A DNA stretch of 64,000 bases, taken from the NCBI GenBank assembly GCA_027603945.1, contig JADIIU010000013.1, positions 1 to 64,000 of the forward strand. Reading direction: 5' to 3'. The DNA comes from Terramyces sp. JEL0728 (lineage: Eukaryota; Chytridiomycota; Chytridiomycetes; Rhizophydiales; Terramycetaceae). The notes under the pieces were generated by a model, which was given only the letters and a program-made list of their open reading frames with translations, was not told the DNA's origin and made no database searches. The position numbers were made by a program, and so were the translations under genes. Positions 3,497 to 64,000 of this stretch are shown one piece after another; within the stretch, counting starts at the first letter, position 1; every line of letters begins with the position of its first letter.

Positions 3497-6400
3497 ATGT
3501 CTCTGGCCAACAAGGATACCGATCCTGCCAAGAAAAAAGAAATTGTAAGCGAATGGTAACAGTAGGATACGTCCTCTCAAGGTTCTTTAAACAAGAGGAA
3601 CCAACGATTCTGCGGAGGAAGGATGAAAAAGTGGGAGTACATTCTACTGCATCTCTTCATAATCATAAATGTAGTTGGATTGGCATTTGGCACCCTGCTT
3701 TACACTTACTTGATCCCTAAATTTGCCCAGTACAAAGTAGATCAAATTGGTGTGGACGGAAATACAATTAGAATTCATAAATTAGACGTGGGACAGATCC
3801 AAAACAACCAGATCCCCATTTCCATTGATGCTCGTGTCGATGCTTTCACCGCATTCCCAGTCCAAGGTGGAATTGGAAATACAGTCATAGATATTTCCAG
3901 CGGGGGTAAATCTATTGGATCATTTAATCTCCCTGCTTTAGATTTTTGGTTGAACGAAGAAATTGTGGTTGTTGCAAACTGTACAGTCACTTTTACTGAT
4001 GCTCAATTAAAAAACGGGAATGCACTCTTAACCGCCCTTTCCTCTCCTGACGGAATCAACGATCTAGATATGTATCTGTCATTGAGCCCTCAGATTTATG
4101 GCCAAGGGATCATGTTTTATTCCCATTTGCCATTACATAGAGACTTGAATTTTGGCCATGTAACGAATGCCATCGGATCTTACTTTGCTTCTACAAATAT
4201 GAACCAGTTCCAGCCTTTGATTCTCTTTGGCCCAGACCACGATGCAGGTAATTCCTAGCTAATAAGCTTCCCAATTATTGCATTCCCATTTCGATGCAAA
4301 TGAAATCATGGTTCTTCCAGAGAGTCTGGGCAGCCTCGAGGTAGTATGGACGACCTTTCAACTACTAATGGATGACGTTAGCGCATTTTTGAACACTGAA
4401 TTTGCATTTGCAAATCCAAAATATGTTTCATTGTCGACAATAGACCAAGTGGACTTTTATTTCTCTCTCGAAGGTACCAAAGCTGCAAAAGTCACCCTAC
4501 AAAGAGTGGGGCTGCTTAATGGATTAAATTCAAATTTCACAATTGGGACTAAATTGACTTTTATCGATTCGCAGATTGATCCTGTCGCTGTTCAAAGCGC
4601 TATAGAAATGGCATCACAAAACTATGCCCAAAAGAGAAATTTCCAATTTGGATTAGTTGGACCAATATCAGTCTCTGGTGCTCCCTTTGTTGAGCACATG
4701 ACTGAAAACCTCCAGTTGAAAGCTTCTTTAGGTGACCTTGTGTTACTAGCACCTCAAGCACTTACCAGCCTTTTCAACATTGACTTTTCCTCGATATTTA
4801 ATGAACTGTCGCAAGATATAATTGGCAATTCAACTATTTCTGCTGACCTTACGAGCAATAGCATTACTGCCTCGCTCGGATTAAATCTCAAAGCATTCGA
4901 CTTTTTGAAGCCTCCAAAGAATGTAGATTTCCCTTATACAACGACTATCAGCATTCACGGTCCCAACACTAAAATCTTTGAAACGAATGTGAATCCAATC
5001 AGCTTTGGAATAGATGAACGAGGAGTCGTGCTTAAAACTAATGCAACTATTATTCCTGTAAATACTGATCAAGCAGCAACAGACTTGGCGGTAATGGTTA
5101 ACCCAATCATTTCTCGTAATCCAGCAAACTCAACCGTTGGAATCAAGGATTTGCTATTCGCTTCCCCTGGCCAAGCGCCGTTTAAATGGTCGCAGTCCTT
5201 GTTTGGCGAAAGAGTGTTGAATATTGGAATTCCAGCGGTAAACACTGAATCATTGTTGCTCGGTTTGTCTTCGCCAGCAATGGGAAACGCAATCAGCAGA
5301 ATTGTGCAAGTGGCCAACGGAAATATTGATGTTTCCCAATTAAATGATAGACCTGGGTTTGGTGCATCTGGTAATCTGAAAATTGAATACTCAAATAACT
5401 TGCCTGCCGTTTCTGTTGGTGTCGGATATTTCAATCTATATGCTACTGTCGAATCAAACAATTTGGTTCAATTAGAATTGCCTAACGGACTCGATTTTAA
5501 GCCTTCTCAAAGTGGTACAGCTGTGGATGCAACAGCAGTTATTCAACGAGGCGATGTGTTGCAAGCGAAAATACAGAGTTTGGCGAATGCAGTCCTGTTG
5601 AATGGATCATCTCCATCGTACTTTGGGTTGACAGGTCTACTATTTGGAGCATCCAAACAATCAAATATTGCAACGTTTTCCAAAGTTGTGCTTGATTTTG
5701 ACACTGACACTTTGCAAAAGGCGATTCGCAATGAAAACTTTACTGTTCCAGCGCTTCCAAACAATTTCGTAGCTTTGAAAGGGGTTGACTTTAAAATCAC
5801 TGATGTAAATTCTCTCTCTCTTGGATTGGGACTACAGCTTGAAAATTCGTTTGCTTTCAACTTGAACCTTGGAAATATCCAACTCAATGCTCAGCTACAA
5901 AACCAAAATGTTTTAGGTTTGAAAATCCCTCCAATTTCTATTTCTCATGGAAGTTCATCGCAGAACATAAATCTTGCAATGTCACTCCCAACTGCAGATT
6001 CAGTTGCTCAAAAGAATGTAGGAGAGTTTTTGCAAGCCATGTGGAACAAAGATACTGCTATCTCATCAATCTCTGGCATCTCTGGATTTGAGTTATCTCC
6101 GTCTAATCCAACATCCCCATCAGCTGTGATTGACCAGTTTTCCAGAATCGTGTTCTCGACAGAGTCTTCAAAAATCATCAAAGCAATCTACGATCAGCTG
6201 AACGGGGCAGGAGGATCTCCAGTTGATATCTCTGCATTGGTGCCTTCTTTGGATTTGTCAAAGTTTGGCTTGGCAGCTGAATCGCTGGATCTAAATGTTT
6301 TACCTAAATCTGCTCTCCAAGTTTCTGTTGGATTATCCTACAACAACTATTTGCCAATCACAGTCTCTGTTCCCTACCTGCAGTTTAGTGCTATGGTAGA

Positions 6401-9400
6401 CGATTCTCTTGTGACTAATATGCAACTAAATGGATTGGCCATTGCGCGAGACGCAGGTATTTCCATTTTAATCTAGCAAAAATGCAATTAAGTCCCACCT
6501 TAAGCTTTTCTGGAAATACTGCGGATAAAGTCGGATCACTAGTATCCGGTATTACTGGTGGGAGACTAAGCAACTCTGTTAAAATTGGCAATATTTTGTT
6601 TGGGCCTTCAAGTTCTCAACAAAACTCGATTATTTCCTTGGCTAGCTTTGACATTACCTCCATCGTCCAAAAAGCGGTTTCTGGGTTTAAAGTTTCCTCG
6701 AATACGATTGATCTTTCCCATATCACGCCAGATGCGACCAAGCTTGGCTTAGGTGCTTCGTCATTCGATCTGAATGTAATGGCCAACACTAAAATCGCTT
6801 CTTCGATCGGAGTAACCTTCAACAACTATTTACCAATCACCATCAACATTCCATATCTTCAAGCATCAGCAATTCTAGATAACGTGCATGCCGCTGATGT
6901 TCAAATTAGCCAGGGAATCGCAGTTTCTAAAAACACAGGATCCCTTACTGTATCACCTGTAGTTACATTCCAAAAAAACATTGCTGGACCTGTCGCAACA
7001 TTGGTAAACGGTGCAAAGGACGGTAAAATTACAAGCAGTATTAAGATTGGCGGTATTTATCTTGGAGCGTCTCCCAATGATCAAAATGACTTTTTATCTA
7101 AAGTCACTCTTGATTTATCAAAGTATATTCAAGGTCAGCCAAGTACAAATTTGAATACCATCTTGGATCTCTCCAAACTAACTCCAGGCGATTTTGGCAA
7201 ATTTGGAGTAAAGGCAAATTCAATCGGGGTTGGCATGCTTCCTTCTGCAACAATCTCCAGCAATTTCAATTTAATGTATAACAACTACCTCCCAATCACC
7301 CTCAATGTCCCTTACATCAAGATTACTGGTGGCTTGGATAACACTCCAACTATTGATGTTGAAGCGAATAATATAGGAATAACGAAAAACTCTGGTAATT
7401 GATTTGTAATCTAGCAACTTTAGATGCATCTGCCAATATTGGCTTCCGGCAAAACGTTGCGGATAGCATATCAAAACTCTGGAATCAAATTGTAGATGGA
7501 AAGGTAACCTCGGTTTTGTCAGTGTCTGGAATTACATTTGGTGCATCCAATTCGGATGAGAATGATATGCTGTCTCAAGTTGAATTCGTTCTTCCATCAA
7601 GCTCAAGTGCCAACTCAACGTATGTTACTGAACAATTAAAATCCATTTTGGGAATAACTACTAGCGCGCAAGCAGTGGCTCTTGACAATTTAAAAGCTGA
7701 TATCCAGCCTCAAAATATTATTGGAACAACTGTTTCTTTAGATTTGGGAATCAAAGTTCCAGTGCACCTTGATATTCCTTATATTGCAGGAAATGTGTTT
7801 TTGGACAATGAAAAAGTTGTAAACAAACTAGAAACTGGAATCAATGTGCAAGGCGAAAATCCCAAACTTGAAATTGGTGCAAATATAGCAATCAGCGATT
7901 CTAGCAACCTGGGCAAAAAGATTAGCGATATTGTTACAGCTCTAATAGACAAAACAAGCATACCGGGCACACTGTCTGCGTCTGGCTTTATCTTGGGATA
8001 TAGTTCGTCAGCTACGATCGATGCATTTTCCAAGATAGATATATCATACGCTCTTGATTCGATTATCCCCAAAAACATTTCACTGTCGCCTTCTGATATT
8101 TTGAAAGAGCTGAATCTTGGAATTTCAAGCGTTAATGTACAATCGAAACCTGGAAAAGTTATCGAAGCACAAACCGGCATTTCAATGGACTTTAATTATC
8201 CTTTCACCCTTACTGGATTGAAATACTTTTCACTAGCTGTGCAAATGGATCAAACGCCACTGTTATCTGTTTCCTCAAACTCTGAATTGCTCCTTTCAAA
8301 AGGGAATCTGACGCTTAATCCTGTTGCCGACCTTGGATTTATTTCCAGCCCCGCCGGACAAGACGGAATTGCCAAATTTGTGTCAGATATTCAAGAGGAA
8401 AACAAACTTTTACAGGTAATCACTGTTACTGGCATCAATTTTGGTAATGACAATACTTTGCCATTCAAGTTCTTGAGCGATTTGAAGATCAATGTCAATG
8501 CTAGCTCTATTTTGACTAAAGATCAAATTCAAAAAATCAAAAGCAAGATTGATGTTGACACAATTATCGGCAATCTAGGAGCTCGAAAAGTTCATTTAAA
8601 AGCAAACGACGACTCTTCTCTCTCGACTTCCTTGGGAATTGACTTGAGTGACTTTACCCTGGGGGCTGGCGGTACATTTGACTTTTTGTCTGCTGGGATA
8701 AGTATTGACGACCAAAGGTACACATTTTCTTATATAGCTTACTTGACGTTGTTGGCGGTTTAACTTTTGAAACAGAGAATAAAGTGCTAATCGCGGGATT
8801 GGACAGCACAACCAAACTATCTGATGGAGACGCGATCAAGGCAATTATCAAAGATATAGCTCAGCAAACTGCCAACGGGGAGAATGTAACAAACACTCTT
8901 TCAATAGGAGATATTGTCATTGGCAGCGGATCGAGCGATTCGATTGATTTATTCAACAAAGCACAGCTGAAAATTCCATTGGGCCCAATTGTATTCAAAT
9001 TGAAATCTCTAATTGAAGATATTATTTCACAAAAAGAAAAAGTAATGAATACCGTTGGAATTAAGCCCCAAAATATCGACTTGGATGTGCTTGATGAAAA
9101 CACGCTGGTTGCTAACGCAAATGCACAGATTGAAAAACTTGATGCGGACTTGGATATTGATCTGCCTTACATCTATGCTCAGGTTGCGTACAATCGTAAC
9201 AAGTTTGTTGATAATACCATTCAAAAACTAACAATCAAGAACAGCGTGTTTGATGCCCAAGATTTGATTTATATGCATGATGATAGAGGAACGATCCAAT
9301 CATTTGTAACTGTATTGGGAAATATAGTCTTTTCTCGAAATGTCACCACCAGCGATGTTGTAACGATTAGTTCTGTTGCTTTTGGGTACAGCAAAACCAA

Positions 9401-10664: not shown

Positions 10665-11824
10665 ATGGACCAGTTCAAATTGCTGAGGGGAAATGTTCCG
10701 AATTCATTCGCATATTTCACAATCAAGGACAGAATGCCTACCATCTTGACCAAAGTAATCAACAGTCTCTCAATGCACATGTTTGAATACGATGAAAATA
10801 CCGCCAAAATCAAAGATATTATCAGTCATATTGCTCAACTGAAATACAACATGACCAGGAACAAGACCCTTCCGAATCTACCCTCAACCCCCGACAATGA
10901 AATATATAACCGATGTATAGAGCAGAGTGAAAAGACATGGTTTGATGCCCCCTGGCTATTAGTAGAATGTCTGATGTACAGGTACCCACGATCTAACGAG
11001 ACTGTTGCAAGAGATTGCTCTAGAAAGCAAGCTGGATATCGACTTGTTTCGCTGGATAAAGCAAGAGGCATTCAAGGAAACTAATGTTGAACTGGAAATT
11101 GCAGATTTGCCAACAATGATGGAGCTGGTTTTGTGGGGAAATCAGTCGGACTTGTCGCTTCATATCAATGGTAGAGAGGAAGGAAATGTGCGCCAAAGTC
11201 ACATCATTGTCAATCACATTGAATCAGTATGTAAATTATTACCAGCTGAAAAGACTATTATCTATGTATTGGACAATGCCGGATTTGAATTATATACAGA
11301 TCTGATGTTTGCGACTCTATTAACTCGTGATTATGGAGTCAATATTATTTTCGAGTGCAAGCAGTATCCGTGGTTTGTAAGTGATGTAACACCAAAAGAT
11401 TTCCATCAGCTAGTCGACGCTAAAGAAAAATACACTGAATTATGGAAAGGATACTTGAATTCTTCCAAATGGCAGCTGCGCGCGCATTGGTTTTGGACTA
11501 GTCCTCTGCCATACTGCTACATGGAAAGGGAAGCACCGGATTTGTACCAGGAATTAAAACAACACTTTTCAATATACAAGGGGGATTTGAATTATAGAAA
11601 GGTAAATGGATTTAATGCAGATGGTCCACGACGCCGATCATCAAACTGATTGCAAATTTCAAGATGTCATTGGGAGTATGAAAGAAACTAGGTTCTGCAT
11701 CGTGCGCACATGTAAAGCAAACACTTGCTGTGGATTGGTAGCCGGACAAAAGGAAGAATTGGACAAACTTGATGCCAACTGGATGGTCAACGGTAAATTT
11801 GGAATTGTCCAATTAAATGAATAA
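10665..11824 (+). CDS. ARMT1-like DUF89 damage-control phosphatase
   Basis: Exons 10665-10981, 11001-11601 and 11621-11824 (introns 19 and 19 nt) encode 373 aa. The family (human ARMT1, yeast YMR027W) contains metal-dependent phosphatases acting on sugar phosphates and other damaged metabolites. Family landmarks are in order: SFAYFTIKDRMPTILTKVI near the N-terminus, PWLLVECLMYR before intron 1, the metal-binding YVLDNAGFE (D197, N198), KGDLNYRK just before intron 2, and RTCKA..C.GL with the closing W...GKFGIVQ. The ATG at 10665 is the first in frame; it starts close to the conserved fold, so the N-terminus is shorter than in animal homologues. Skipping either intron would break the family alignment. 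Stop TAA overlaps AATAAA (11820-11825), 71 bp from the end of the convergent THADA gene. Confidence 0.9.
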
Positions 11825-11895: not shown

Positions 11896-14800
11896 TTATT
11901 GTTCAAACAGCGGAAGCAGCAACTGATGAAGTTTCAGGTTCCTAAAACTATTGTACCAGCTGGCATTTCCATTGAATTTCAGTATTCTGGATATCGAAAT
12001 GATTTGAGCAAAAATATTAAACACAAGCTCATAATTGCTTGACCATTCAATATCTGAAAGTTTTGATAGTTCTGTCCATACTGTTTGGATATGAGCAGTG
12101 AGATGATCCAGATATTTGGCTGCAAGGGGCTTTTCCATGGATTTCAAGCTATTTATAATATTCTTGAATGGCTGCTTATAGGAATTCATTTCTTCTTGAT
12201 CAAACAGCCCAGAGTTCATGCTGTAAAGCCGTTCTAGATTAGTATTAGCGTACTGTAATCATCTGTACATAGCACAGATACGTGAAAGCCAATCGGGTCA
12301 AATTTCTCAATGTATTTCAATATCAACGACCTTGCAAGCGTGTCGCACACACCCAACTCCACAGAGGATAAATGCGAAACTGCTGCACTTGCTGCACCCC
12401 TTACCTCCTCATCATCGTCTTCCAATATAGACAGAAGTAGTACGCAATAATCTAATTCTAGCTGTTCAAGTTTTACAAATCTGATACCATTCAAAGATTG
12501 GGCTGCAGCGAGCCTTAAATCGACAGGCTACAGTTAATATTTATGTACTTGATCGTCTTGCAGGTAGCGTTTACACTTGCTAATTAATAGCTGCGCATAT
12601 TGTTTAGTTTCTATGACGACCAAACTCAACAGGCTCAGTAGAGATTTAATCAAATCAAATGTAGTCTGTTTGTCGAGCCAGTAAATGATTGCATCGATAA
12701 CTTCCACTTTGTTTTCGTAATTGGAAATTACTTTAGCGCAGGCTGTGACCACAGCATCAATCTTGCTATTATCCATGAAATATTTTACCGCCAAATTGCG
12801 AACTGATGGATGAGAGGTTCTGGAGGGGATTAAATCGAATAGCATCCAGATTCTATTCGAGTCTTCTTTTTCCAGTACAGACACGATAAATTCGATATTC
12901 TGTTCATAATTTAGCGGATGGCAAACAGTCGAACAAGCGGTTTGAATGTGATATTGAGGGCAGTACATGAGTGAAGCCGTTCCATCCAACATCTTTTTGC
13001 TAGTTTCCAGAGCAATTTGGCGCACTTGATCAATTTCGGTATTCTTTTCCAACTCAAAGAATTGTTTGTGCAAGACACCTAAAAACACGCCTCTGGCAAC
13101 TGCAAATTTATCGTTTGAAAATATCCAGCCGATAGAAATGAAAGCTTTGGCCAGATTCGTGTTTGCGTCTGGGTGAGATGAAGCATATTCATGCCAATGA
13201 GCTTCCAAGATTTCAGACACTTGAAGAGAAACTCCATGTGCGAAATTTGCTGTAGATACAGGTTTCAGTTGAGATAGAAGAGCACACGCCACTTCATAGC
13301 ACCTTGCACTGTCTACGAGAGCTGCTAACGTTCTAGAAGATATTTCACGTACTTTCCATTGAACTGCGTGTGCACACTCCTTAACCAGGACTTCAAATAC
13401 CTTGGAGGAATATAATGCATCTTCAGATTCTAAAGGTACAGGCTTTGCTAAGTTAAAACTGGCGTACTTCTAGACAAAATTCCAAGTAGAGGATATAGCA
13501 GCGGACATACTTGATTCTGTTTCAAAAGTTTAACGGCGTTTTGCAATTCATCCAATATTACCTTGTATAGTGAAGGATACTTGCTAAAGAATTCTCTAGC
13601 AAACACTAAATTGACCAGATCACCTTCCGATTTGGTCTTTTTGGTGCCAAACGATTTGTTTACAAGGGAAGAGAACAGCATTGCCGCGCAGTTTCTGATA
13701 GGGAAGTAATCGCTTTTAAATTGCATAATGCAAATTTCAAAGCAAGCCCCAAGGTAATCTCTTGTGATAGTTGTCAGTTCAGAGTCCAGAACTAGTATTC
13801 GAAGTACGTTCATTGCATGAACTTGAGGTAAATCAATTTGGATATTTTTAGAGTCGACCTCGGTTTTTGCAATAAAAATCACCTTTTCGATTGTATAATG
13901 GAGCAACGCTGCTTTGCGTTCGTTGTTTGGAGCTGAAACGATAGCTAGTATAGCAGCTGGTAATCCGGCACTGCGTCTAGTAACTGAAACTTCCAAACTT
14001 GAAATTTGGCCGATAAAATTCTAATGTTAGAAATATTTACATCCAACCAATCTTGAAGTAAATGATGATACTTTTGATTTGACGACACTAGCTTGCACAC
14101 AATAGACAGATTTTCTTGTACAGAATTGAATGCCCCTCGATGCCTAACAGTAGTCAGCAAATCTGAAAATAGTTCTCCAGCAACTTTCACGTATTCGTAC
14201 GCACTTTGGTGCTTCCCCCCTAAAAGTATTTCCGAAATCAAAGAAATACAACTTGCTGCTTGTTTGATGGACCGGAAACAATGTCGAAGCAAGATTTGTG
14301 CAGTTTGCGATTCAGTTCCAGCCTCTACTTGAACTGGCAGGTTCCCTTCTGGTGACGGATCCGAACATACTTTTTGGCATAATTTGCAAACACTGATACA
14401 AAGCCTTGTTAATCCATCGATTGAAGATTCCCATGTTGCGTAGTCTTCAAACTGTATTTCCTGCAAAATGTTGTGGATTGCATTCAAAATGGAATATAGT
14501 GGATGGCTGATTGATGCATCCACCAAGTTATCCACCGCAAAATCATAATGCGATTGTAATTTGCCAATTAATAGGTTTAAAAAGTCAACTTCTGGACTTG
14601 CAATGACTTGATCTAAGGGGAAACAGTGCTTTCTGATATATTCCACATAAATGATGCGGCAAATATAAGCTGCTGAATCTGAATCGGCTGCTCGCTTGCT
14701 GACAAAAAGTTTCTCCACTTTTGTAATCAAATACTGGCAAAACGATTGGTTTCCGTATTCCAACTTTGGTAAATCATTTTTCTTTAGGTACATCAATAAA

Positions 14801-16791
14801 TCTCTTCTGCTATCTCCAAAAGAATCAAATACGATCCGTGAGAAAATGATTTGATAGATTTTGGAAGAGCTGAATTCCAGCAGCTGTAAAGAAATTGTAG
14901 CTGATATATCCACCACTAGCTTTTCTGTTTGGTTCAGTAAATCAAGAATAATAATAGCGCCGATAGTTCTCGAAAAGGAAGACCCAGGATATAAACTGCC
15001 GAGTGCTTCATTAAATATCCAGTTAAAGAACTCTTTTTTCATATTCATTTGATTTGTAATTTGGAGTATTTCCGGTTGAATCTCATTAATCAATTCTTGT
15101 CGATTTGACAGTTTCTTTTCAAGAGAAAAGATATCTCGCTGGTTCTTGTAGATGCTACGTTTCAATCGTCCAAAATATCTGGAGTATGTTGCCGAGATTT
15201 GTTGTCGGTAGTCTACAGTTTCGCCGCATCCATCTAATATCCAATATTGCTTTACAAAATCTATTTCTTGTACAGTTACGTCCTGATTAGCTTTTGAAGA
15301 TTCGGTGACATAGCAGAATGCTTGGTAGCGTAATCTACTTACAACGGAAGTGATACTCTTTTGGATTATTTCATATTCAGATTCAATTTTGATTGGCCTT
15401 CCAAAGCCTTTTGCTACTTTCATGCACGATACAAGGGCCTCTAAACATACTTCATCTCCTTGTTCAATCGCTCCAGTGATTAGATTCAGCCCTTCAAAGT
15501 CCAGTTTTGCGAATACAGGAAGGATTCGTTCTGCGGTATTTTTTCTGATGATTTCACTGGGACTAACTAACGCTTCAGCAATATCCAAATAAAACCTTTT
15601 GATATCTTGCTTGTCTTGGGCTAGTTTTTTCAGCAAATGAATAATAAACGCTGCTGCAGACTGGTTTAATGACGGTCTATCAAGGTATTTAATTGTATCC
15701 TTTAAAACATTTGGGTTTAATTGAAACAAGATATTTGACGGCACTTTTGTTGCTAGGATAGTAAACAAATCGTATTTGACTTTTCTTCCATAAATTTGAG
15801 ACAATTTGGTAATAATAAACGGCAGTATCTCATTATCTGATAGCACTAGTTCAACCATTCCTCCAAATATTTCCCTGAAATAAATAGTTATTTACCGCAA
15901 CTTTTGCTGAGATACCGCTGAATCATCCCACTTGTCAAGCACAAGTATTAACGATTGAGTAATAATATCTTTTGGAGCATCCATTTTCTTTAATAATGCT
16001 ACTTGGAACCATCTTGATAGTGCTTGAAAGCCAAATGTTTGCACTTTGGATTCGCTATGCGTGATAATCAATGCATGCAAAGTATTGTATAGCGAGATGA
16101 ATGATTCGAGTGGTAATGCCAACAAACTATGTGGATTGCACTGTAAAATTCCTCCAATAACCAAAATCTGCTTTTCAGGGTTACGAGTAACTTTTGAAAT
16201 TAATTTCAACTCTCCATCCAAATCCTCATCTGTACAATTAGATAAAACTTTGATTGTTTTGGATATAGGCATTTCCGAATATTTCGACAATAATGTTCCT
16301 ATTAATACACTTGCGAGTAAACGAGATTCCAAAGAACTGTCTAATGCGGCGATTCCAAACTCCAGGTATTTCTGTAAATCTATTTGAATGGAGAGTTTAG
16401 TCATCAATGCCACTAGTGGTTTCAAGAATAAAAACAAACCAAACTCCAATTCATCTAGCAATTCAATTTCGTCATTGATAATTACCAGTACCGCTTCGAT
16501 TGTATCTTTGATAATCTCCATCCCAAAGTTAGAGTCAAGGAAAATCAAGAGCAAGACGTTGAACTGCTTGTAAAATGCAGCATTTCTTTTTTTGTTTACT
16601 GTTTGAATCCAGTATGGAGCGATTGCTCTCCACAGTAATAAATCTTGTTTATAATACTTTTTGAATTTCTGCAGTAGTACGTTCCTGAATATCCTGTCGT
16701 AGTCATCAGCTGTACTGGTAAATATCTCTAGATATTCCTCGATATTTGATTCGTCTAGCACCAAGCTTTGAAGTGATTTCAAATTCTGCAT
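11896..16791 (-). CDS. THADA / Trm732 tRNA methylation adaptor
   Basis: Exons (descending) 16791-15896, 15874-14041, 14020-13468, 13447-12549, 12527-12254 and 12233-11896 give 1597 aa. Introns are 21, 20, 20, 21 and 20 nt. Trm732/THADA proteins are huge HEAT/ARM solenoids that bind the methyltransferase Trm7/FTSJ1 and direct 2'-O-methylation of position 32 in the tRNA anticodon loop. The diagnostic DUF2428 core straddles intron 2: SVTRRSAGLPAAILAI (about residue 924), then LPQVHAMNVLRIL and FPIRNCAAMLFSSLV. KVREISSRTLAALV after intron 3 and VDLRLAAAQSL after intron 4 also fit. Length is close to the family norm. The short introns were placed by requiring these motifs to be continuous. The stop overlaps AATAAA (11895-11900, minus strand). 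Confidence 0.9.
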
Positions 16792-17736: not shown

Positions 17737-17915
17737 TGAAAAGAATTACATCACCCTTGTTTTTTACTTGGTTATGTTATATCCGCCATCCTTGACTATC
17801 ACAGTTAGAATTCCCCTCTTATATTACTCGAGTTTAATTAATAGATAGCTGAAAGGCAATAAACATTGTATTAATACAAGAAATAGTTGATAACTCTGAA
17901 TAAAATGACTACTAA

Positions 17916-19787: not shown

Positions 19788-19933
19788 AATAAAATAAAAA
19801 AAGAATTACATCATTCTGCTGAGCAAAAGAAATTGATCTTACCAGATTGATGCAGCCAGACATTGATATGATTGAAATGAGCGACTACAATCTACTAATA
19901 GAACTAGACTGCGATGATTCTCCAAATCCAAAT

Positions 19934-50955: not shown

Positions 50956-53900
50956 ATGTCAACTCCAGAATTGAATCAGCCAGAAAAATTAAGGCCGTGG
51001 AGCGGAAGCATAGTGTGTCCAAAGAAGGAAAAGGTATCTTCAATCCATCGTAGATATGAAGAGTCATTTGCTTTGCCTGTCATTAATATTTTTCAAGAAA
51101 CAGGATCGAGTTTTGACAATGAATCAGATTGTAATTCTATCACAGACAAGCGGGGTAAATTAGCGAATTCCCAGGATTTTCGAAATGGAATTGCAACACC
51201 TGTCAGTCCAAAACCAAATTACGTGGAAAAGATTATTCAAATCCAAGAAATGCAGAAACCAATGCATATTAAACGAGATTTCCCCAAAGTAAGACCAAAG
51301 ACACCGCAGAGATGCTTTGTCGAACATACCAGGCTGAAACGTCCAAATACTGCAGTTAGCTTTCGAGACAATACGCCTGTTGATATCAATGATACAAAAA
51401 CATCAAAGAATCGGCCGGCAACTGCGAAAAGTTTAATCTCTGATGTTAACTGGGACTATTTAACGCGGAGTCAATCAGCTGCAACATATTCAAAACCAAT
51501 TTCAAGACCAAATACTGCAAAGTGGTACAACCCACTCGAGCCTGAGAGTAAAACTCGCAAGATTAATAAGCTTATCAGACGGCAACACCAAATAGAGATG
51601 GCGAGACCTTCTACTGGACGGCCGTCAACTGGGAAAACCTTATATGGTGCTTTTTCGGAAAAGATGATTCCCCAATCAAACAGTCCATGGCCTGGAATCC
51701 AAGATATTTCTGGTACAGCTCCTTCACCATCAACTCTTTGCACACCAGGAACCGCAAACAATTCCATAGCTGACGGATCTACCCCTGAATTATCAATCCC
51801 AATAGATAACGCAGCATCAATCATTGTCATGAATGGAGAAATTGCACACACTTCAGCATCATACAATAATTTTATGCAAAAAGTGCAACATTTCCCGAAA
51901 GATTTGTTGGATTACTACATGTGCCATTTAGAACAATATTTGCGGATGACAAGATGTAATTTTCAATAATTCTAGTTGAGTGGGCAGAGTGTAATGTTGA
52001 TAAAATAATCAAAGCTCTCAAACATCCCTTCCCATGGAAGTTTGCCAGACCCAAGGATTTCCTTGATCTATTTGTAAACCAACAGGATGTACATTAAATT
52101 AATATAGATACAAAACTATTTAGCAACTCCAGGATCAAAATACATTGGACCTTTACGTTTTCATTACGCAGCTTTAAAAATCCAAACCTTTTGGAGAATG
52201 TACTGCAGCGTCAAGCAATATCACAAGCTCCTTCGAATGAGGAATGATGTCAGCAAAGTGTGGAAAGCTTGGCAACGAAGAAAAAAGAGAATTGAACGCA
52301 GAAAGGCATTTCAGGTAATTTGCTTTAATCAAAGGAGCGACTGGATGAGGCAAAATTGGCTTTTCAAAAGCACAATGACAAATTTTACATGCAGTGGAAG
52401 ACTATTGCGGAAACGGATAGGATTGTGGTCAAAGTGAATTCCGCTAGTTTTTCAAAGTTTTATCGGTGCTCAATGACGGACCAAGACTCGTATGAGAGTG
52501 GATGTTTTGCAAGATTTATTGACTTGTTCGACCCGAAAATATCTATGATTTTTATTACAAAGGAAATGACTCCAAATGAAAGGATGGACATGCAACGGAT
52601 TATCAGTAGCTTGTAGTTTACCACAGATATTAATTTCAGCTACAAGGAGCTGATAGAAAGTAAAAGATTGATACTGGTCGAGCTGCCTTCGTTGGACATT
52701 TTTCCAAAAAACTATTCGCTGGGGAACTTGCTTCTTGGCTCGCCCGAGTCTCTTTCATGGATAAAATTCAGTATCTCAGGAATGCCGGCGTATATAGAGA
52801 GTACCGCCTTGGGGCCAGAAGAATGCTTTCTCTCACAAGTAAACAGCCATAACCATAGTATTTTAAAATACCCGTATTGGGCTCTTTTACAGCTTTCGAC
52901 TTACTAACCAATAAAAGGGAGAATCAACGAAAGTTTGCTGAAACATGCAAATGCGAAATACCACCAGGAATAGGGTTTTCGCACTTGGAGCTTTGTTCAA
53001 TACAAGATATAATTCCCAGGCTAGAGACGCTGCTTCAAGAATTTCCGTCAATTACTACCTGGGTTTTTAAGATGAATGAAACTACAGATAAATTTGGACT
53101 AGCCGAATTTACTCGCACTAAAGAAAAGTCTTTAGTGCAGGATTTGCTTAGAAACTTGAAATGCATAACGAGTCACAATTGGGGCAATCCTGCCGCCTAT
53201 TTCCATCTATTTGTGCGACACGGCGGCGTGATAGAAGCCAAAGTTCCTGCTGACTACAAAAAAGTGCAGCATCCATACTTTTATTATCAAATTCTACCAG
53301 ATTACACAATGGCTTGCCTTGGATCTTGCAACATGGTAAGTGCCATGTTAATTTAGCTGCCGTACAGAGAATACGAATTTTGCGGAATGTTCACTCCTTG
53401 CAATGTCGCAAACAAACATGAGCTGAGAGAGAAAGCATCACGCATTGCTAAAAATTTTGAAAATCAAAAATATATGGGGTTCTTGGCCATAGAATTTATT
53501 CAATGGTTTGATGATGCAGAGGTAGCTATAAACTAACAAGCAAAAACACACTACCTGGGTAAAGTCAATCAAGCCGTACTACACTGCGGAACTTGGCCAA
53601 CTTCAATACACCAGATTAGTTTCAAAGTGTACCGCATTTAGAGATGAATCATTTATTCATGTACCATCCCCAGATGAAGAGCCGGAATTTAAACATCTGA
53701 AAAAGCTAAAACACTTTGAAATGGTATGTTTATGTTAACTTTGAACAAATTAAGAAAAAAAGCAAGATTGGCACAAATATTCGACCGCGTGGGGATCTAT
53801 CTGTGGGGACTGCACAATGATATGATTGCTGGGCTATCAAACAAATCATTTGAATGTCTATGTGTAGAAAATAATATCATAATGGATTTAAACTATTGCG

Positions 53901-54632: not shown

Positions 54633-57600
54633 ATGGACATTGGTGAATTAAGTGGAAAAATAATCAAAAGCGAGCGGAGAGAGCAACTCAAATTGATCCA
54701 TGGATTGAATGACATGATGCTGCTATCCCTTTCAAAGGCGATTCGATACAAATTCAAATCCGACAAAAATCTGCAATACATTCAAATCGGTACGTTGCTG
54801 ATACCGAGAATGATAAAGAAAATGTCGAATTGTGGAAAGCACGAATTGGTTAATTATTACAGGTAACATCAAATTCACGAGATACGAAATCCAATCAATT
54901 GTAAATTTAATCTTGGCTTCAGGGCTAGCAGTGAAAGAGATTTACAAGGAAATATCTACCATAATGGCGAGTGTATTGGAATCAAGGGGAAATTTTATAT
55001 ATTTGAACGAATTGAACCAAAGCAACCTCGCTAGATTTATCACAGAGTTTTCAGGGGAATTGATTACGAGCTACAAGCAGGATGAAAAAGCTTGGAAATT
55101 ACTGAAAGTGATTGCATCCAGAGGACTGATAAATCAGCAAGTGTCAGTGAGTGTGTTATCGAGTATACTGGAACTTCTTGAAAATGATTCTCGATGCTCG
55201 GTCAATTTAACTTATATTTTATCCAAAATTATACCATTGCTTCCTGCAGACACCTATTCCAATATTGCAATCATTTTACTCAAGTTTATAAAACGGCTGA
55301 ATCTCAATATCACAAATATTACGAAATATGGGGTAATCAGCAGCTTAATTCTGGAAGATATTGTTTTACTGTTGAAATCGAATCATGTAAGGACTATTGT
55401 CGGAAAGCAAGAGCACATGGAGATATTTTCTAGACTGATTTCACTATTCTCTAAATCTGTTATCGCATTTCATAATCAATCTCAACAAGCGCAGCCAAAT
55501 GATGGAGTGGAATCTAAATTTGTAATGGTGAACTCGCATACTCTGCAGATATTCACATTGCTCAAATACACCTGTCAAATAATGACCACAGTCAAGCATC
55601 CTACGGCAGCAGACTTGAAAAAGATTTTGTTTATCTTCAAGTTTTTGATTGCAAATATTGACGATATGGAAGAGTTTGAGCCGGACGATAACATGTCTGA
55701 CGTTGAAGGAGACCAAGAATCACAATATAATCGCACTACTCTGATAGAAATCCTTCGTCCATCACTCCTGTTTGCAGCGACAGAATATATTCTGCAACTG
55801 TTTAAACTTTCATCCTGTAATTTCAATATCAAAGACTATGTAGTGTGGATAAAGATAATGCAATTAATCGAAACTGCTGAATATATTTTGAAATATTCTG
55901 CACATACAACAATGCAGAGTATTAAATCCTCGATTGTGAAGATATTAGCATTTGTATGGACCGATTTCTTGAAAAATCCAGAACCAGACCTCATGCTAAT
56001 CAACAAGTCCCTGATTCCATGTCTGGTATCACCATGCGGCATTATTATACAAAACTACTTTAGTGGAGCTGCTAGTGCAACCGAATTTAATGCAGGGCTT
56101 GTTCTTCTTTCAAAATTTCTACTGTTTAGATCTTACAAAAACATTTCAATAGATAGCGGGTTATTAGATTACATTGCATCTTCAAGCTACATCGATGCAT
56201 GTTTAGCAAAGGAAAACTTTGTTTACCTGCAATGTATTGAAAAAATATGCAACGATTCAAGCGTACGGTTTAAACTAAGCAATGCTGCCCCCGAAAAGAA
56301 TATTCTGAACTTTATGACAGGTCTGGTTAAAAGATCGCTTCTTAGAGTGGGCACAGAGGGCAACGAGCATCTGCAAGATGTGCTAAGTAAATCATTTTAA
56401 ACTAGGCAATGCCCTCTCGTTCTTGAATCAGCACTTTGGCCATGACAAGGTTATTTGCGATTTATTTTGCACCAATGATGATTCAACGATGGCTGAACTT
56501 GTCCAGTTACTGACTAGTGTTATAGCTGATATGCTATCACTTGACCTGATGGAAGCAACAACAAATTTAACGCCGCACACCATCATACAAATCTCACACT
56601 TTCTCGATTCTCTTCTTCGTTTTGAAAAACCCCAAGTTTATGTGCTGTCTCATAATTTAATTCGTGATCTGGCAAAAATCATGCTTCAAATCAATCATTC
56701 TGATGTCCCAGAGATTTTTAGTAAAGTCATTGGTAGAATCCTAACAGATCCCAACCTTACACTCAGAATAGTAAAGTATTTGACGATACCCAAATATTAT
56801 GAAAGTATCTATCCGAATACAGCAAACAAAGTGCAGGAAATACTGGAATCACACCTGCCACAGTACCAGCCAATAATGCTATCCTTGCTGGAATACAATA
56901 ACTCGGATGTTGATTTCGAGGTTCAATCAAAGTGTGTGTTGGCGTTGGGGTATGTTTCTAGTAAGCAGCTGGTCAGAACTGTGTTATCTAGTTTACCTTA
57001 TACTGAAGGGGGGATCTCGAAATCACAAGCATTTCAGATCATGTCGTTTATACTCGAAATCAATGAACTTGAAAGTCTGTATTTGTCAAGTGCTCAAATG
57101 CTTATCCAGCACATGGCAATCCAGATCCCAGCTGCAATTCAATCACTCGGGCCAAGTTACTATTTTGCAAAAGAAAGCAAACCAAAACCGCAATCCAGTC
57201 TAATTCAGCATATTTTATATGCGCACGAGCCGATATCAGTCCAGCTCACAGATACAGATAATATTGTTACATTTTTATTACCAGATGATCCAAATTACCA
57301 TACAATCCGATGTAAATGCGACAAAAAAGTGTTTTGCGAACAATCCGCAGTGTTTGCACAGATGCTAGACAGTACATTTATTGAAGGACAGTCGCAAGTT
57401 ATTACTATCCCGCAAGTTACCAGAAGGAGCTGGTTCCTATTGATGGATTGGATCAATTTAACCAAAGTATGGTCAGATTCTGTGCCATTTCAGAAAACAC
57501 AGACTTCTGATGTGGAACTTGTCTTTCAGGTAATGCAGGTCGCAGATAAGTACATTCTCAACGAACTATATCAAGTGTGTGCCGACTGGATCACTGACCT

Positions 57601-57770: not shown

Positions 57771-60700
57771 TTAGTTTGAAATATCCTTTTTCACTCTGCA
57801 GAACGGGCACTGTCCTTCAAGCAGCACCTGGTAATTCCATTCATCTTCAATAAAAAAGTGCTGGCACGAGTCACACATAATAATATGGATGTCGCTGGGA
57901 CAAAGTCTGTAGTATTCTTTTTGACCAAGAGTTCTGGTAAAGACTTCTTGCGGGTCCAAATTTATCAACTGTTCTTTGGAGTATTCTGTCGGCTTATACT
58001 CTGAATGTTCCTGGCTGATTCCTAGTAGCTGTGAATTGAATAAATCTCCACCAGGCTTGCTAATTGGAGGGTCGGTTTGAATATATTTCAAACAGTCTTC
58101 TTCGCTGATATCAGGATGAGGCACAAATCTGGTTAGTGGCAGATTTTCAAAGGAATAGAATGAATGAACGGCCGGTTCTCTGCAATTTGCGCAAGATGCA
58201 CTTTTTGGATTGAATAAAAGATTCGTTGTTCCACAATTGTAACAAATTGGTAAAAAATCATCCTTGTCGGTCACTGGCATAGCTCTGACAGATAGCGTCG
58301 CAAGATCTACTGTTTCTTGCCAGTTTAGTGGCAGTTTCATTGCCATTAGCTTTTCAAAGGCAAATCTACTGAGCTTGTAACAACCCAGTTTGAATGATAT
58401 TTTTGCCATGCAATACAGTGTGTAATTCTTTGATATTCCAGGTACTGCTGGCTTGTTCAAGATGTAATTCAGAACAAACTTTGAGGAATTTAGCAATGAT
58501 TCCGGCGATGAGAATGTGAACGGGTCTTCAATATAAGTGTAAATTTGATTGTAGGCGTAGTAGACTTCAGCCAATTCGTAATACAACTTCCAAGCTTTGG
58601 GAGAATTAATATTATGGTCTCGCTGTGAAATTCCAAATCGTTTGTTCATGAAATTCAATGTTTCCTTTGCTAAAGACCAGTAGTAGTAGGCTGCATCTTT
58701 GTATCTATGCTGGATTATTGCATTATCTGACAAAAGCCGTAGTACTCTGATCGCTTCGTCAGCTCTACCAGCCTTTGTATAGTACACTTGGGCTTCTTCG
58801 AACCGGTCATTCATGGCTAACCAATTTCCGTATGGTAAATAGGTTTGCTCATTAAACTCTGGATTTGTTTCGCCGATTTTGAAAACCTCCTCCCATTGCT
58901 GAGACGAAATATATATCCCCAAAAGGGATAGAATATCGCCAGACTTTTTCAAAGTTTCAATCGCATATGCAGTGTTGTTTTTCTTTTTGAATATTCCAAC
59001 GCATTTGGTGAGCAGGTCGGTTTCGTTTGCCGGTAGTTTTCGGACTACTTCGATTAATTTATCCGTCCATCCACCAACGCCAAGTAACTCGATTGCGTGT
59101 GCATAATCCCCAACCTGTTCATATGTCATTGCAGCTGCCAAAGTATCGTGGTGGTCCTCTTGAATTTGTGCTTTTCGTTTCAGAATATCTTGAGTGTTTT
59201 CATGAGATTCTTCAGCAATCTGCGTTGCATTCTCCCACATGTTGAGCTGGGTGAACATTTCAATAGCCCTTTGTGGATTCCCACTGCGTTTGAACAGCCG
59301 TGCAGCCTAAGTTAAAGGCAAAGTACTTCGTGGTAGTTTTCGAAATATGCAGCAACTTCGGCCAGGAACAAATCAGTTTCTTTTCTCCCTTCGCTCTTCA
59401 TTTTTTCAATTATCCGTATAGCGTCCAAGTACTTGTACTCTTTGATTCTTATAAATGATTTCTTTGAAATTTCCATATCTAGTTTTTCCATTGCTTGGAT
59501 TGCCAACTTTCTCCAATCTGATTCTGGCACTCCTAGACACGCTATTTGATATGCCGATTGGAAATCAGCGTCTTCGATAAACCTATTCATTTGTATTGAA
59601 AGTGGAATGTCAATTGCAGCCATTGAGTTGTTGTTTAGAGTAAATACCTTGGCGCCTTTAAAGCCTATGGCCAGTCCTTCCAATCTTTGCTGGTGTGATA
59701 AAAAGCTGTTTACTTTGATTTGCAACTCTCCATTACCAGATATGCATACTGAATCTTCCAACTCCATATTCCACGCCAAACTAGAAACATTTTGTTCTTG
59801 ATAAAGGATATCCTTGGTGGCGAGGTCAAATACGAGACAGGTGTTTTGATCATCGACTATGGCCAACTTTTTTTTAGACAGATTGATGTCAGCGCAGTTT
59901 ACTGGATGAGAGTGCTTTACCAGGGTAATTGGGAAAGGGTTGTTTATGAACAGTTGCAAAACCTCACCACTTTTCAAGCCCAGTAGCACTCCTTCCTTTC
60001 GCTTTGGTCCTCCTAAAACCCTGATAAATTTGATTGTTGACTCAAAAGTCCATTCGTGTTCGTGTTCCCCCGACATTGAATACATTTGCAATTTGTTGTC
60101 GTTGCACAACAGTATATTGTGAGATGCTACCACAAGCATATCGCACTCTAAATCTTTCTGAATTTTTTCTTTAATTCTGTAGTGCATATCACCCTGTTCG
60201 TCGTGGAAAAGTTCATAAACAACAACTCTATCAGGAATTTGAACAGCAAGGCATTCCTTGTATAGCGCAATCTTTTTAATATAATCACGGCATTTGATTC
60301 TTGCACAATGTGCGGTTGACAGATTTTGAATGACAACATCAGTCAAATTCTGACGATAAGCATATTTATCTTCATAGAAACCGTGGACAGTGTTGAATAC
60401 CACTTGATACATTGAAATGGTTCCATCAGCACTCCCTACTACAACAAAAGGAGAGGTTGGACTTGCTTTGCATGACCAAATCCAGCCGTCTTTCTTGCAA
60501 ATTTGTCCAATTTGAATTCCATCGGCTGTCCACAAGTTAACCTTGGATTAGCAAGACATTACTTCTCTATTTGAGCCTCCCAGGATGATATATTCGCCAT
60601 TTGAAAAATACGAGACACATGTAGGGTCAAAGCCTAAATACCGGTCTTTGCCAAGCTGACGACCAGAGAGCTGAAAGAAAGACAATTTCTGGGACCAATC

Positions 60701-61340
60701 AGCTACCGCAAGTATGTTTGACTCTAACTCTGGTGCTTGAGACCATGCTAGAGACCATATAGGACTGGTTCCCCTTTCAATCCGAACTTGCTCTTCTCCA
60801 GTGACTGACCTGATTGAAATATGTCCATTATATAATCCTAATGCGAATTGCTGACCATCTGGTGACCAGGCGGAACAGCAGATTTTTGATGGAATCTGAA
60901 TTCAGCCGAGAGGTACCTTTGCTTTGGGAACAGCTTTAACATCCGGTGTCCACAATCCAAAATCAGATCCAGTACAAGTTAAAACAACTCCAGTTATTGG
61001 GTTCTGACTGATAGACTGTATAGTATCTGAATGCGAATATTTCAGAATCCCTTGAAACACATTTGACCAGATTATTACCTGTTTGTCTGCACCTCCAGAA
61101 GCAAACCCGTCCCCTAATAACGGAGATAGACAAATAACACTGTCTCTGTGTGCTTTTAGAGCTTTAATCAGATTTCCCTCTGCTGCGTTGTAGATTAGCA
61201 ACTCTTGACCAGCAGCAGCCACCACTTTAGTTCCATCTTGAATGAAAATTACATCATAGATGGGCTGCGCAACTCCATTTGCATCTTGAACCTATATTAA
61301 TGTTGCGTACTCTGTCTGTCCAATTTTGCAGCGTCTTCAT
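57771..61340 (-). CDS. IFT122: IFT122, intraflagellar transport complex A subunit
   Basis: Exons 61340-61311, 61291-60917, 60895-60563, 60541-59327 and 59306-57771 encode 1162 aa. Introns are 19, 21, 21 and 20 nt. IFT122 is a core IFT-A protein that carries membrane cargo into cilia and supports retrograde transport. N-terminal WD40 blades include [27 protein letters not shown]-like [10 protein letters not shown] and [18 protein letters not shown]. Middle and C-terminal parts are TPR helices ([30 protein letters not shown]). Two Cys clusters end the protein: [12 protein letters not shown] and CDSC....CPFC. Every join lies within a family-conserved block. The 30-nt first exon gives [10 protein letters not shown]. 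Direct evidence for a ciliated life stage. Confidence 0.93.
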
Positions 61341-61399
61341 TTCAAAGAAACGCGTCAACAAAAATCATGGAACCAAAACTTATCGTGGTATCAGATTTA

Positions 61400-61748
61400 T
61401 TAATGAACGACATTCAGTGCAGACACTACCGCAATAACAATGATAACCCCAGCTACCCCACCGATTATCGCCATCAACTTCATGTTTTTCCACCACCTTT
61501 GTTAGTGAAATATTACATTTCATTCTTTACTTGCACCGAAGATTTTTTGAATGACAATGCACCGTTTTGCAGTTCTTGTGTCTGTGCCTCTAGTTTCTCT
61601 AGTTTTTCACCTCTCTGAACTACCTAAATTACACTGCGGTTACTTTGTCGATGTTGGTGTGCATTATACCAATGACTTCATTTACTTGCTGTTGGACTTC
61701 AGCATTTCGGTTAGGAGCCTGTTGAGCTACAGCTTGTGCTTGAGTCAT
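61400..61748 (-). CDS. Synaptobrevin/VAMP-type R-SNARE
   Basis: Exons 61748-61644, 61623-61517 and 61496-61400, with two 20-nt introns, encode 102 aa. The longin-less layout matches Snc1/VAMP2: a short N-terminus, an R-SNARE helix opening VNEVIGIMHTNIDKV, the zero-layer Arg in VVQRGEKL, the juxtamembrane EMWWKNMKLMA and a tail anchor of about 20 residues (IIGGVAGVIIVIAVVSAL). Such SNAREs drive fusion of secretory vesicles with the plasma membrane or of recycling vesicles with Golgi. The intron 61624-61643 lies just before the zero layer. No single uninterrupted frame covers the gene. The stop overlaps AATAAA (61396-61401). Confidence 0.92.
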
Positions 61749-61870
61749 GCTGATAAACTAATTTTTTCTTTATTTATAGTGGAGGTTGTGAAACATCCAC
61801 GATTATTAGAACAATGTAAACAAATAAAATAAATAGGTGATTGTTTGACTGTCCGGCAATCAAACAATGG

Positions 61871-62599
61871 TTAGCAGGACCCAGCCCTACCTCTCATCAG
61901 AGCCTCGTTCTTTTTCTTGGTATTCCTTCTTCTATAGCAGGCATTACATAAATAGGTTCCCTTGACATCCTGGTTCAAATACCATTTGGAGGTTTTATCA
62001 GCACCGCACGACTGACATATTCTATTATTACTACTTGGCTTTGTAATTTCTCGTTTTGATTTAGGTTTAAGATAAGGTGTTTCAAGGGTTTGCTGGGAAC
62101 AATCACCACACAGTATCTCGTTGGCAGATTTGACCCACCGAGATGAATTTGAAGTGTGGCATTTGGAGCATGTCTGCTTGGCTGGTTCAGGATAGCTGTC
62201 GGAAACCAATTGCGAAATGTCAATTGGGCTGCCCGAGCTTTCGATTTTGTCTGACTGTACAGACTCTCTGCGTTCTAGTTTTTTCTCCAGACTGATTGCA
62301 GGCAATTGGTTGTTCACCAGCACATCATTAATGACGGCATATAACTCGCTTTCCGGTATTAGCGAGATGTTCTTGTTTCCTATCATTAAGTAATACCAAC
62401 CATAAGCACTTGAATTTGCCAGCAATATTCTAATAACATGGTGTAGCCCAGCTATGCGTGCGTATTGGTCTCTAACAATGTCCGAAAGGTTTGTGATTTC
62501 TTGTTCCTGTTCTTTGATTGTTCGATATAATTTAACTTGCTCTTCCAATCCATCGAAATACTTCTGCTTAAACAGGTCACTGGGTTCTTCCGAATTCAT
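61871..62599 (-). CDS. Two-finger GATA-type protein
   Basis: A 242-aa single-exon protein starting at ATG 62599. A leucine-rich coiled segment (residues 10-60) comes first. Two C4 fingers lie in the second half: CSKCHTSNSSRWVKSANEILCGDC and CQSCGADKTSKWYLNQDVKGTYLCNACY followed by RRRNTKKKNE. The second has the CxxC...W...G..LCNAC shape and basic tail of GATA DNA-binding fingers. The first lacks the basic tail and may mediate protein contacts. It is probably a transcription regulator. A TATA element 32 bp upstream of the ATG supports this start over an upstream TTG in frame. Confidence 0.82.
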   Translation of the reverse strand: MNSEEPSDLFKQKYFDGLEEQVKLYRTIKEQEQEITNLSDIVRDQYARIAGLHHVIRILLANSSAYGWYYLMIGNKNISLIPESELYAVINDVLVNNQLPAISLEKKLERRESVQSDKIESSGSPIDISQLVSDSYPEPAKQTCSKCHTSNSSRWVKSANEILCGDCSQQTLETPYLKPKSKREITKPSSNNRICQSCGADKTSKWYLNQDVKGTYLCNACYRRRNTKKKNEALMRGRAGSC

Positions 62600-63368: not shown

Positions 63369-64000
63369 TTATTCAGCCAAAGCACAGAGATTAAACCTTT
63401 TTTTTGCAGTCAAAAACTTGTAATCGCCTCGGATTTGGCTGGACCAAAACTTTACTTTAACACTCCATTGGTCACCGTAATACTCGCCTGGCACTTTGAT
63501 GCTGAATTGATCCTGGTATTGTGTGAGTGGCTGGCGATCCCCATCAAACCATTCGATTGACAAAGTTTCATTGAATTTTTTGATTGAAGATCTGAATTGG
63601 GCTAGGGACAGTGGGATTACTTGTACTTTAATCAGACTTTGACACGATAGCACTATTTCGTCAATTAGAGACAGCTGGCTTAACAAATTTGCCCAAAGAC
63701 CTTCAATGCACACTAGATTAGGAGCTCTTACCATCGCAAAAAGTATCTCTGCTCATATCTCTCATTAGACAAGCATCGTTGGTCGGTCGATAAGACACCC
63801 GTCCATCAATATCCCAAGTGGGAAAGGCGCCGATAAACGATTTGCTTTTATGGAATAGTGGTTCTTTTGCAAATTCGTGTAATCTAACAGAACACAACTG
63901 TCGGATTGGAGATTCAGGAGTAGAAGGAGGCAGCCCTTGTTTGAATACCAGCGTATGCTGTCCTTTTGCCAAGGTTTCCCCTTCCCATGCTGAAAATGCT
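63369..64000 (-). CDS. Peptidase M64-like protein, C-terminal part
   Basis: Exons 64000-63732 (open at the window edge) and 63712-63369, with one 19-nt intron. About 204 residues are visible. The sequence FSAWEGETLAKGQHTLVFKQ, FIGAFPTWDIDGRVSYRPTNDACLMRDMSRDTFCDVCIEGLW and LLSQLSLIDE matches the region after the zinc site in fungal M64 (IgA-peptidase-like) proteins. There a NCLMR...FC..C block closes the catalytic domain. A beta domain follows with IEWFDGDRQPL and YYGDQWSVKVKFW. The zinc-binding HExxH lies outside the window, so activity cannot be judged. Most fungal members are secreted. The stop overlaps AATAAA (63368-63373). Confidence 0.72.

Follow-up and report, generated by a model that had tools for sequence, protein, structure and literature searches.

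Introns of about 20 nucleotides predicted as the prevailing class in the chytrid fungus Terramyces sp. JEL0728

Introduction

Introns close to 20 nucleotides (nt) in length have been described in nucleomorphs, Stentor and mikrocytids, and introns of this size were predicted here in a 64,000-nt stretch of DNA (bases 1-64000 of contig C13, referred to below as the window) of Terramyces sp. JEL0728, a fungus of the Rhizophydiales (Chytridiomycota), as well as in other contigs of its assembly. The nucleomorph introns of Bigelowiella natans and Lotharella oceanica are mostly 18-23 nt long, with a mode of 19 nt, GT-AG ends and AT-rich sequence (PMC4035089); size class, ends and AT-richness are thus common to them and to Terramyces. 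However, nucleomorphs are relic endosymbiont nuclei with 951 and 1,011 introns, whereas Terramyces is a fungus with ordinary-looking U2, SF1, U2AF65 and U1C and perhaps some 25,000 introns, by straight extrapolation from an assembly that contains duplicates.

The introns of Stentor coeruleus are 15-16 nt long, with GTA donors, GUAAUU as the commonest start and 5 nt after the branch A (PMC9505925). Both organisms have length-locked introns with GTA donors, a GUAAUU-type start and a fixed branch A. This A stands at position 10 in Stentor, with no strong branch consensus, whereas in Terramyces it is found at 14-15 in a clear YTAAY. In addition, all five small nuclear RNAs (snRNAs) were found in Stentor (PMC9505925), while U1 and U6 were not recovered in the Terramyces assembly. 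Mikrocytids, which were missing from the comparison with Paramecium, Stentor and chlorarachniophyte nucleomorphs drawn in an earlier note on this DNA, have introns of 16-17 nt, with 224 predicted in M. mackini, and are parasites with a reduced spliceosome (PMC10245619). They share an extremely narrow length range and conserved sequence with Terramyces, in which none of the four components found points to such a reduction. In Paramecium, ultrashort introns are likewise the sole class, but they are longer, with a mode of 25 base pairs (bp), and 3n lengths and in-frame stops are under constraint (PMC5014332). Short introns of Trichomonas go down to 23 nt (PMC12316389).

Among fungi, Cryptococcus neoformans has mostly short introns and many of them per gene, 'short' standing for 60-100 nt and 'ultrashort' for less than 60 nt; the average is 56 nt, those of 40-60 nt are best spliced, and those below 40 nt form a small, poorly spliced group (PMC11913375). 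A mean of 63 bp has also been given for Cryptococcus (PMC8476143). Introns below 40 nt are therefore exceptional in this yeast, while about 20 nt is the rule in Terramyces. In Blastocladiella, introns retained in expressed sequence tags range from 55 to 333 nt (PMC2773782). In the openly licensed literature searched, no paper turned up that reports introns of about 20 nt as prevalent in any fungus, chytrids included.

The size class itself, one of the shortest on record, is already known from Stentor, mikrocytids and nucleomorphs. What is notable here is that the host is a fungus, as the earlier note had supposed, that the introns are many, and that the early factors sought (SF1, U2AF65, U1C) are in place. 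Terramyces, a free-living soil saprobe, would offer a free-living fungus in which to ask for the minimum size of a spliced intron, and would help to tell the shrinking of introns apart from the reduction of the spliceosome. For structural biologists, its introns would provide a substrate from a fungus in which donor and branch point are 14-15 nt apart.

Gene Finding and Intron Length

The assembly comprises 15.0 megabases in 231 contigs. Introns were predicted in the window and in twenty 10-kilobase (kb) stretches drawn from seventeen further contigs (264 kb together, roughly 2% of the genome) with a self-training gene finder that has an order-4 codon-phase model, an antisense shadow state and explicit introns. 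The blind run demanded only GT...AG and was supplied with no other motif, under a length prior that was flat from 12 to 300 nt. The trained run used learned donor and branch motifs, and it was repeated with GC donors permitted, this version giving the final intron set. Stop-free introns of 3n length are difficult for this finder to detect.

The blind run gave a single sharp peak, with 122 of 258 predicted introns at 19-21 nt, 144 at 17-23 nt and the others scattered. In the 19-21 nt class, 115 of 122 had a GTA donor and 96 had TAA right before the acceptor, against 44 and 22 of the 101 predictions longer than 24 nt. Per intron, the blind run was weak, as just 24 of its 46 window introns are within the final set. 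The trained run with GT donors only placed 423 of 440 introns at 17-23 nt, and with GC donors 427 of 443, with counts of 113 (19 nt), 179 (20 nt), 92 (21 nt), 26 (22 nt), 10 (23 nt) and 0 (24 nt). Predictions on four stretches with duplicates in the assembly (L020, L021, L038, L040) placed 61 of 64 introns at 18-23 nt; L020, with 20 introns, belonged to the training set.

In the window, 71 introns were predicted in 26 genes: 26 of 19 nt, 27 of 20 nt, 15 of 21 nt, one of 22 nt, and one each of 94 and 119 nt. The share at 19-21 nt (68/71) compares with 65 of the 66 introns in 22 genes resolved in the earlier note, whose outer limits, 3545 and 63731, are exactly those of the first (3545-3565) and last (63713-63731) predicted introns. 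An excess at this spacing also appears without any gene model. The pattern GTA...TAA[CT]N2-3AG occurs at 19-21 nt spacing 50 times in the window versus 7.4 expected (Poisson P 7e-25), and 206 times versus 22.4 in the other 200 kb from 17 contigs (P 6e-121), the chance expectation being derived from how often the pattern occurs in this DNA at spacings of 31-130 nt.

A few longer predicted introns have GTAAGT donors, as at L016 minus strand 2307 (52 nt) and L015 minus strand 9789 (65 nt). Perhaps such introns are a minor class needing canonical signals.

Splicing Signals

Intron ends are GT-AG or GC-AG, as in U2-type introns; these ends were imposed by the finder, while the length peak and the branch motif were not. 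About 92% of the trained introns have a GTA donor, the commonest forms being GTAATT (70/414), GTAAAT (34/414) and GTATTT (29/414). The branch motif, YTAAY, arose without being built into the model. Its presumed branch A, assigned by consensus, occupies position 14 or 15 in 373 of 414 introns, and in 364 of 414 the intron ends 5 or 6 nt further on, so the branch site nearly touches the acceptor, as the earlier note had described. Of the 268 introns with exactly one perfect YTAAY, 238 show the A at 14 or 15 and 233 end 5 or 6 nt beyond it. When the positional prior was removed, 30 of 418 presumed branch sites moved to positions 9-13. Nearly all lengths lie near one value within 15-25 nt and the position of the branch A is fixed, as judged by consensus, which are the marks of the ultrashort class.

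The G+C content of the introns is 30%, compared with about 40% in the 200 kb taken from other contigs. Upstream of the branch site, most positions have T as their commonest base, whereas downstream of it the AG follows too closely to leave room for a polypyrimidine tract. Four ultrashort GC-AG introns were found, three in the 264 kb and one in the SF1 gene, and the donor is GCAAG[TC] in all four.

Conserved Proteins across the Introns

The IFT122 gene, on the minus strand, has four predicted introns, at 59307..59326 (20 nt, also in the blind run), 60542..60562 and 60896..60916 (21 nt each) and 61292..61310 (19 nt). Spliced at these sites, the protein aligns with its top-scoring match, a Boothiomyces protein with 88% identity over 100%, along 1,161 residues without a gap. 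Most of the protein also matches solved IFT122 chains; three of the four junctions are inside the alignment shown, which is gap-free there. The neighbouring VAMP gene (minus strand) gives a protein colinear with relatives across both its 20-nt introns, 61497..61516 and 61624..61643; the blind run had a 20-nt intron 11 nt away from the latter. Matches to DPM2, GRAM, P450, ARMT1-like, GCP and IQCH domains span introns as well. IFT122 and VAMP included, 17 introns in 8 window genes are inside matched stretches, with alignment gaps inspected for IFT122 and VAMP only.

Outside the window, the same was observed in genes of the splicing machinery. The zinc finger of U1C (L033 minus strand 1140-1733) is restored only by removing introns of 21 and 22 nt that flank a 10-nt exon. 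U2AF65 is colinear with relatives once four ultrashort introns are removed, and SF1 aligns across its 21-nt GC-AG intron, which replaced a 63-nt call as soon as GC donors were permitted. IFT122, U2AF65, SF1 and U1C, each inspected in full, require short introns only.

A deposited Terramyces sp. JEL0728 protein, P0002 (window 57771-62599, minus strand), is the nearest match to IFT122 by identity, with 99% over 80% of it, and its pieces match the window except for one residue. This model runs a zinc-finger gene and the VAMP gene together with IFT122, of which a part is skipped. Seven introns were predicted in its region. At those of 20 nt, three in number (59307..59326 and both VAMP introns), the deposited model shows gaps of matching length, so that some 20-nt introns are already implicit in the public annotation, but it contains none of the four that measure 19 or 21 nt, namely the other three of IFT122 and the 21-nt intron at 62380..62400 (minus strand). 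The deposited proteome may hold many errors like these missed introns and this gene fusion. By eye, the fused zinc-finger gene is of the GATA type.

Duplicated Loci

Some stretches of the assembly are present in two near-identical copies (about 99%), on one contig or on different ones (C18, C3 and C199/C111, with the pairs L020/L031, L038/L039 and L021/L022), which are either segmental duplications or uncollapsed haplotypes. Three intron indels were found in the pairs L038/L039, L021/L022 and L020/L031, each of one base, giving lengths of 23/24, 21/20 and 21/20 nt. Duplicated loci tolerate a change of intron length by one base. Three indels in 1,160 nt of predicted intron compare with one (7 nt) in 20,513 nt of predicted exon (Fisher P 0.0006), in a test whose exclusions were picked after the data were seen: the pair L040/L041, in which homology ends after about 3.7-4.4 kb, and a doubtful 119-nt intron in L038. 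Before its homology ends, L040/L041 has no indel in intron or predicted exon.

Splicing Factors and snRNAs

The U2 snRNA is canonical (Rfam, 140 bits) and carries GUAGUA. It holds GUGUAGUAUC, complementary to the YTAAY branch motif, as in U2-type introns. U2AF65 matches solved U2AF65 over RRM1-RRM2 and over its C-terminal domain, which we take to be a UHM, and its N-terminal part matches the large-subunit fragment of a solved structure, presumably from fission yeast. SF1 holds a helix-hairpin, a KH domain and two zinc knuckles, and the U1C gene is present; from their sequences, SF1, U2AF65 and U1C look intact. The factor losses suspected in the earlier note were thus not borne out for U2, SF1, U2AF65 and U1C, which show no sign of spliceosome reduction, most other factors not having been searched for.

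The U1 and U6 snRNAs were not recovered from the assembly with Rfam, sequence patterns or, for U6, a consensus BLAST search, which gave no match. For U1, there was no Rfam match in the assembly even at an E of 10, and the canonical 11-nt 5' end occurred four times versus twelve for its reversed version, with Rfam matching none of them to U1. Several U6 candidates were discarded. Two sub-threshold Rfam hits (27 bits) are in coding-looking duplicated DNA and overlap a predicted intron of 21/20 nt; the pattern ACAGAGA..AGCATGG had two matches versus two in the reversed control; and CCCCTGC..AAGGATGA had one (none in the control), without an Rfam match. Since U2 was the sole eukaryotic positive control of the RNA searches, absence of U1 and U6 is not claimed.

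Proposed Mechanism and Alternatives

The predicted introns are in all likelihood ordinary U2-type spliceosomal introns of a chytrid, apparently shrunk throughout the genome to the bare splicing signals. That they are real and genome-wide, as the earlier note held, is very probable from the length peak, the motif-spacing excess, the colinear proteins, the indels of the duplicated loci, the GUAGUA of the U2 snRNA and the GCAAG[TC] donors shared by all four ultrashort GC-AG introns. We infer splicing in vivo, the identity of the branching A and the factor that would read the acceptor. Each intron would consist of a 6-nt GTAATT-like 5' splice site, a spacer of about 3-4 nt, an [A]YTAAY branch site, 2-3 nt and AG. 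The branch site would pair with the canonical GUAGUA of U2 snRNA, and intron definition would work because the distances from 5' splice site to branch (A mostly at 14-15) and from branch to intron end (mostly 5-6 nt) are each held within a base or two.

Since SF1, U2AF65 and U1C are kept, the intron is probably first recognised through the usual contacts, squeezed into about 20 nt. U2AF65 might bind upstream, act only through U2AF35 at the AG, or be replaced as by SPF45. Human SPF45/RBM17 takes the place of U2AF65 on short introns with a truncated polypyrimidine tract; these are short like the Terramyces ones, but the model intron is 56 nt long (PMC8363638). By analogy, the branch A at position 10 reported for Stentor suggests that a donor-branch loop of 14 nt would not be too small (PMC9505925).

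Several points weigh against this reading. The introns are predicted from DNA sequence, and the length prior of the trained run was 60% learned and 40% flat. Outside 17-23 nt there are 16 of the 443 introns, one of 15 nt and fifteen of 40-214 nt, and some of the longer ones may be genuine, for instance the GTAAGT-donor introns of 52 and 65 nt. The fifteen include a fifth GC-donor call, of 214 nt in L016, with the donor GCAATA, which is probably false. Just 80 of 415 GT donors have G at +5, the base usually paired with U1 and U6; neither of these two snRNAs was recovered by the searches of the assembly described above; and one duplicated region has its 7-nt deletion within a predicted exon. Finally, the distances from donor to branch and from branch to end had a correlation of r -0.04 with the positional prior (418 introns), which would mean two windows rather than one total length, but of -0.31 in the 268 introns with one perfect YTAAY and of -0.67 with the prior removed, which allow for control of the total length. 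The fixed ruler proposed in the earlier note is supported as to the tight spacing, and it may measure either two distances or one total length.

Among the alternatives, the one that survives best, and that may be entertained tentatively, is that length is unmeasured: deletion bias would have shrunk the introns to the smallest spliceable size, with shorter ones selected against. This agrees with the presence of just 2 introns of 17 nt or less among the 443 predicted, with the 20- and 21-nt forms linked by two of the three single-base variants, and with the AT-rich introns that hold little besides signals. A floor alone would predict a tail towards longer introns, whereas the counts drop steeply after the 92 of 21 nt, with 26, 10 and 0 at 22, 23 and 24 nt, suggesting an upper bound too; part of this drop may stem from the learned length prior.

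It is rather unlikely that the U1 and U6 snRNAs have diverged in sequence or carry introns, with a donor shift from GTAAGT to GTAATT and with U2, SF1, U2AF65 and U1C ordinary, so that the 5' side would have been retuned to recognise a 20-nt intron as one fused donor-branch-acceptor module. The donor GCAAG[TC] in 4/4 ultrashort GC-AG introns would be expected of a normal U1 end that has to make up for the C, which is a weak argument that U1 still reads ACUUAC and speaks against such a divergence of U1.

A common class of longer introns overlooked by the gene finder is improbable. The fifteen predicted introns above 24 nt, a few of which have strong GTAAGT donors, would fit it, but the flat-prior predictions above 24 nt are scattered and mostly lack the GTA donor and the branch motif (44 and 22 of 101, as given above), the long SF1 call gave way to a GC-AG intron, and IFT122, U2AF65, SF1 and U1C need short introns only. 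The two long calls of the window do not stand up either. That of 119 nt (37476-37594) is artefact-like, as it links the end of a P450 domain to a stretch that resembles a coiled coil by eye, in what looks like a gene fusion. The by-eye translation of that of 94 nt (19350-19443) resembles the neighbouring paralog, and it is probably a frame-broken coding stretch.

Least probable are sequencing errors, pseudogenes, translational bypass or DNA-level elimination, since, although the interruptions were read from DNA only and U1 and U6 snRNA were not recovered from the assembly, the GT/GC-AG ends, the unimposed branch motif matching U2, the fixed spacing, the position inside conserved genes, the 20-nt gaps at three sites of the deposited protein model and the single-base length variation inside introns of duplicated loci all stand against them.

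Introns and Other Features of the Window

The other window introns of the final list are given here by position, and those marked (b) were predicted by the blind run too. The names THADA, CFAP61 and kinase are putative labels taken from the earlier note. On the plus strand, an intron of 21 nt (3545..3565) is followed by one of 19 nt (4248..4266, b), three of 20 nt (6457..6476, b; 7395..7414, b; 8718..8737, b) and two of 19 nt that are within the match to an ARMT1-like domain (10982..11000; 11602..11620, b). A 22-nt intron at 12440..12461 (plus strand) is weak, its gene model having 51 amino acids (aa). The gene labelled THADA, on the minus strand, has introns of 20 nt at 12234..12253, 13448..13467 (b) and 14021..14040 (b), and of 21 nt at 12528..12548 (b) and 15875..15895. 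Also on the minus strand, introns of 20 nt were predicted at 17303..17322, 18074..18093, 18311..18330, 19113..19132, 19537..19556 and 20167..20186 (b), and of 19 nt at 18502..18520 and 20343..20361; that of 20 nt at 20594..20613 is weak, being at the end of an 86-aa model.

After a 20-nt intron on the plus strand (25513..25532, b), the gene labelled CFAP61 (minus strand) has three introns of 20 nt (26503..26522, b; 27541..27560, b; 27831..27850) and four of 19 nt (27958..27976, 28873..28891, 29626..29644 and 29718..29736, the last with a GTG donor). The GC-AG intron of the window, 21 nt long with the donor GCAAGT, is at 30895..30915 (plus strand) and was predicted with GC donors permitted. In the GCP gene (plus strand), domain matches cover a 21-nt intron in the N-terminal domain (32463..32483) and a 19-nt one in the C-terminal domain (33067..33085), and outside the matched domains there are introns of 19 nt at 31589..31607 and 31807..31825 (b) and of 21 nt at 33498..33518.

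On the minus strand, domain matches extend across two introns of the GRAM domain (21 nt, 34616..34636, b; 19 nt, 34861..34879), one of DPM2 (21 nt, 35336..35356) and two of the P450 domain (19 nt, 38143..38161; 20 nt, 38387..38406, b). A 20-nt intron near the DPM2 start codon (35444..35463) is outside the matched domain. The same strand has introns of 19 nt at 35633..35651 and 35989..36007 (b), of 20 nt at 36894..36913 (b) and 37356..37375 (b), and of 21 nt at 39318..39338.

The plus strand resumes with introns of 19 nt at 47104..47122 (b), 47388..47406 (b), 47558..47576 and 47960..47978, and of 21 nt at 47725..47745; instead of 47558..47576, the blind run chose another 19-nt intron 28 nt downstream. 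The gene labelled kinase-like has a 20-nt intron at 49252..49271. Further plus-strand introns are of 20 nt (51956..51975; 52315..52334), 19 nt (52089..52107; 54863..54881; 56387..56405, b) and 21 nt (52606..52626), together with two inside the match to an IQCH-like ATP-grasp domain (21 nt, 53336..53356, b; 19 nt, 53522..53540). Beyond the genes of the deposited model, the last intron, of 19 nt, is on the minus strand at 63713..63731 (b).

Some other features of the window were noticed by eye. A tandem array of related membrane-protein-like genes occupies 16886-20865 on the minus strand; its copy at 18946-19646 looks frame-broken, and no Pfam match was obtained in the one copy scanned. On the plus strand, two adjacent intronless genes, 1-618 and 1422-3038, appear to share one repeated domain, the second seemingly with two copies. 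The stretch 3455-10538 (plus strand) encodes a predicted protein of 2,328 residues with repeated similar units and an N-terminal hydrophobic stretch.

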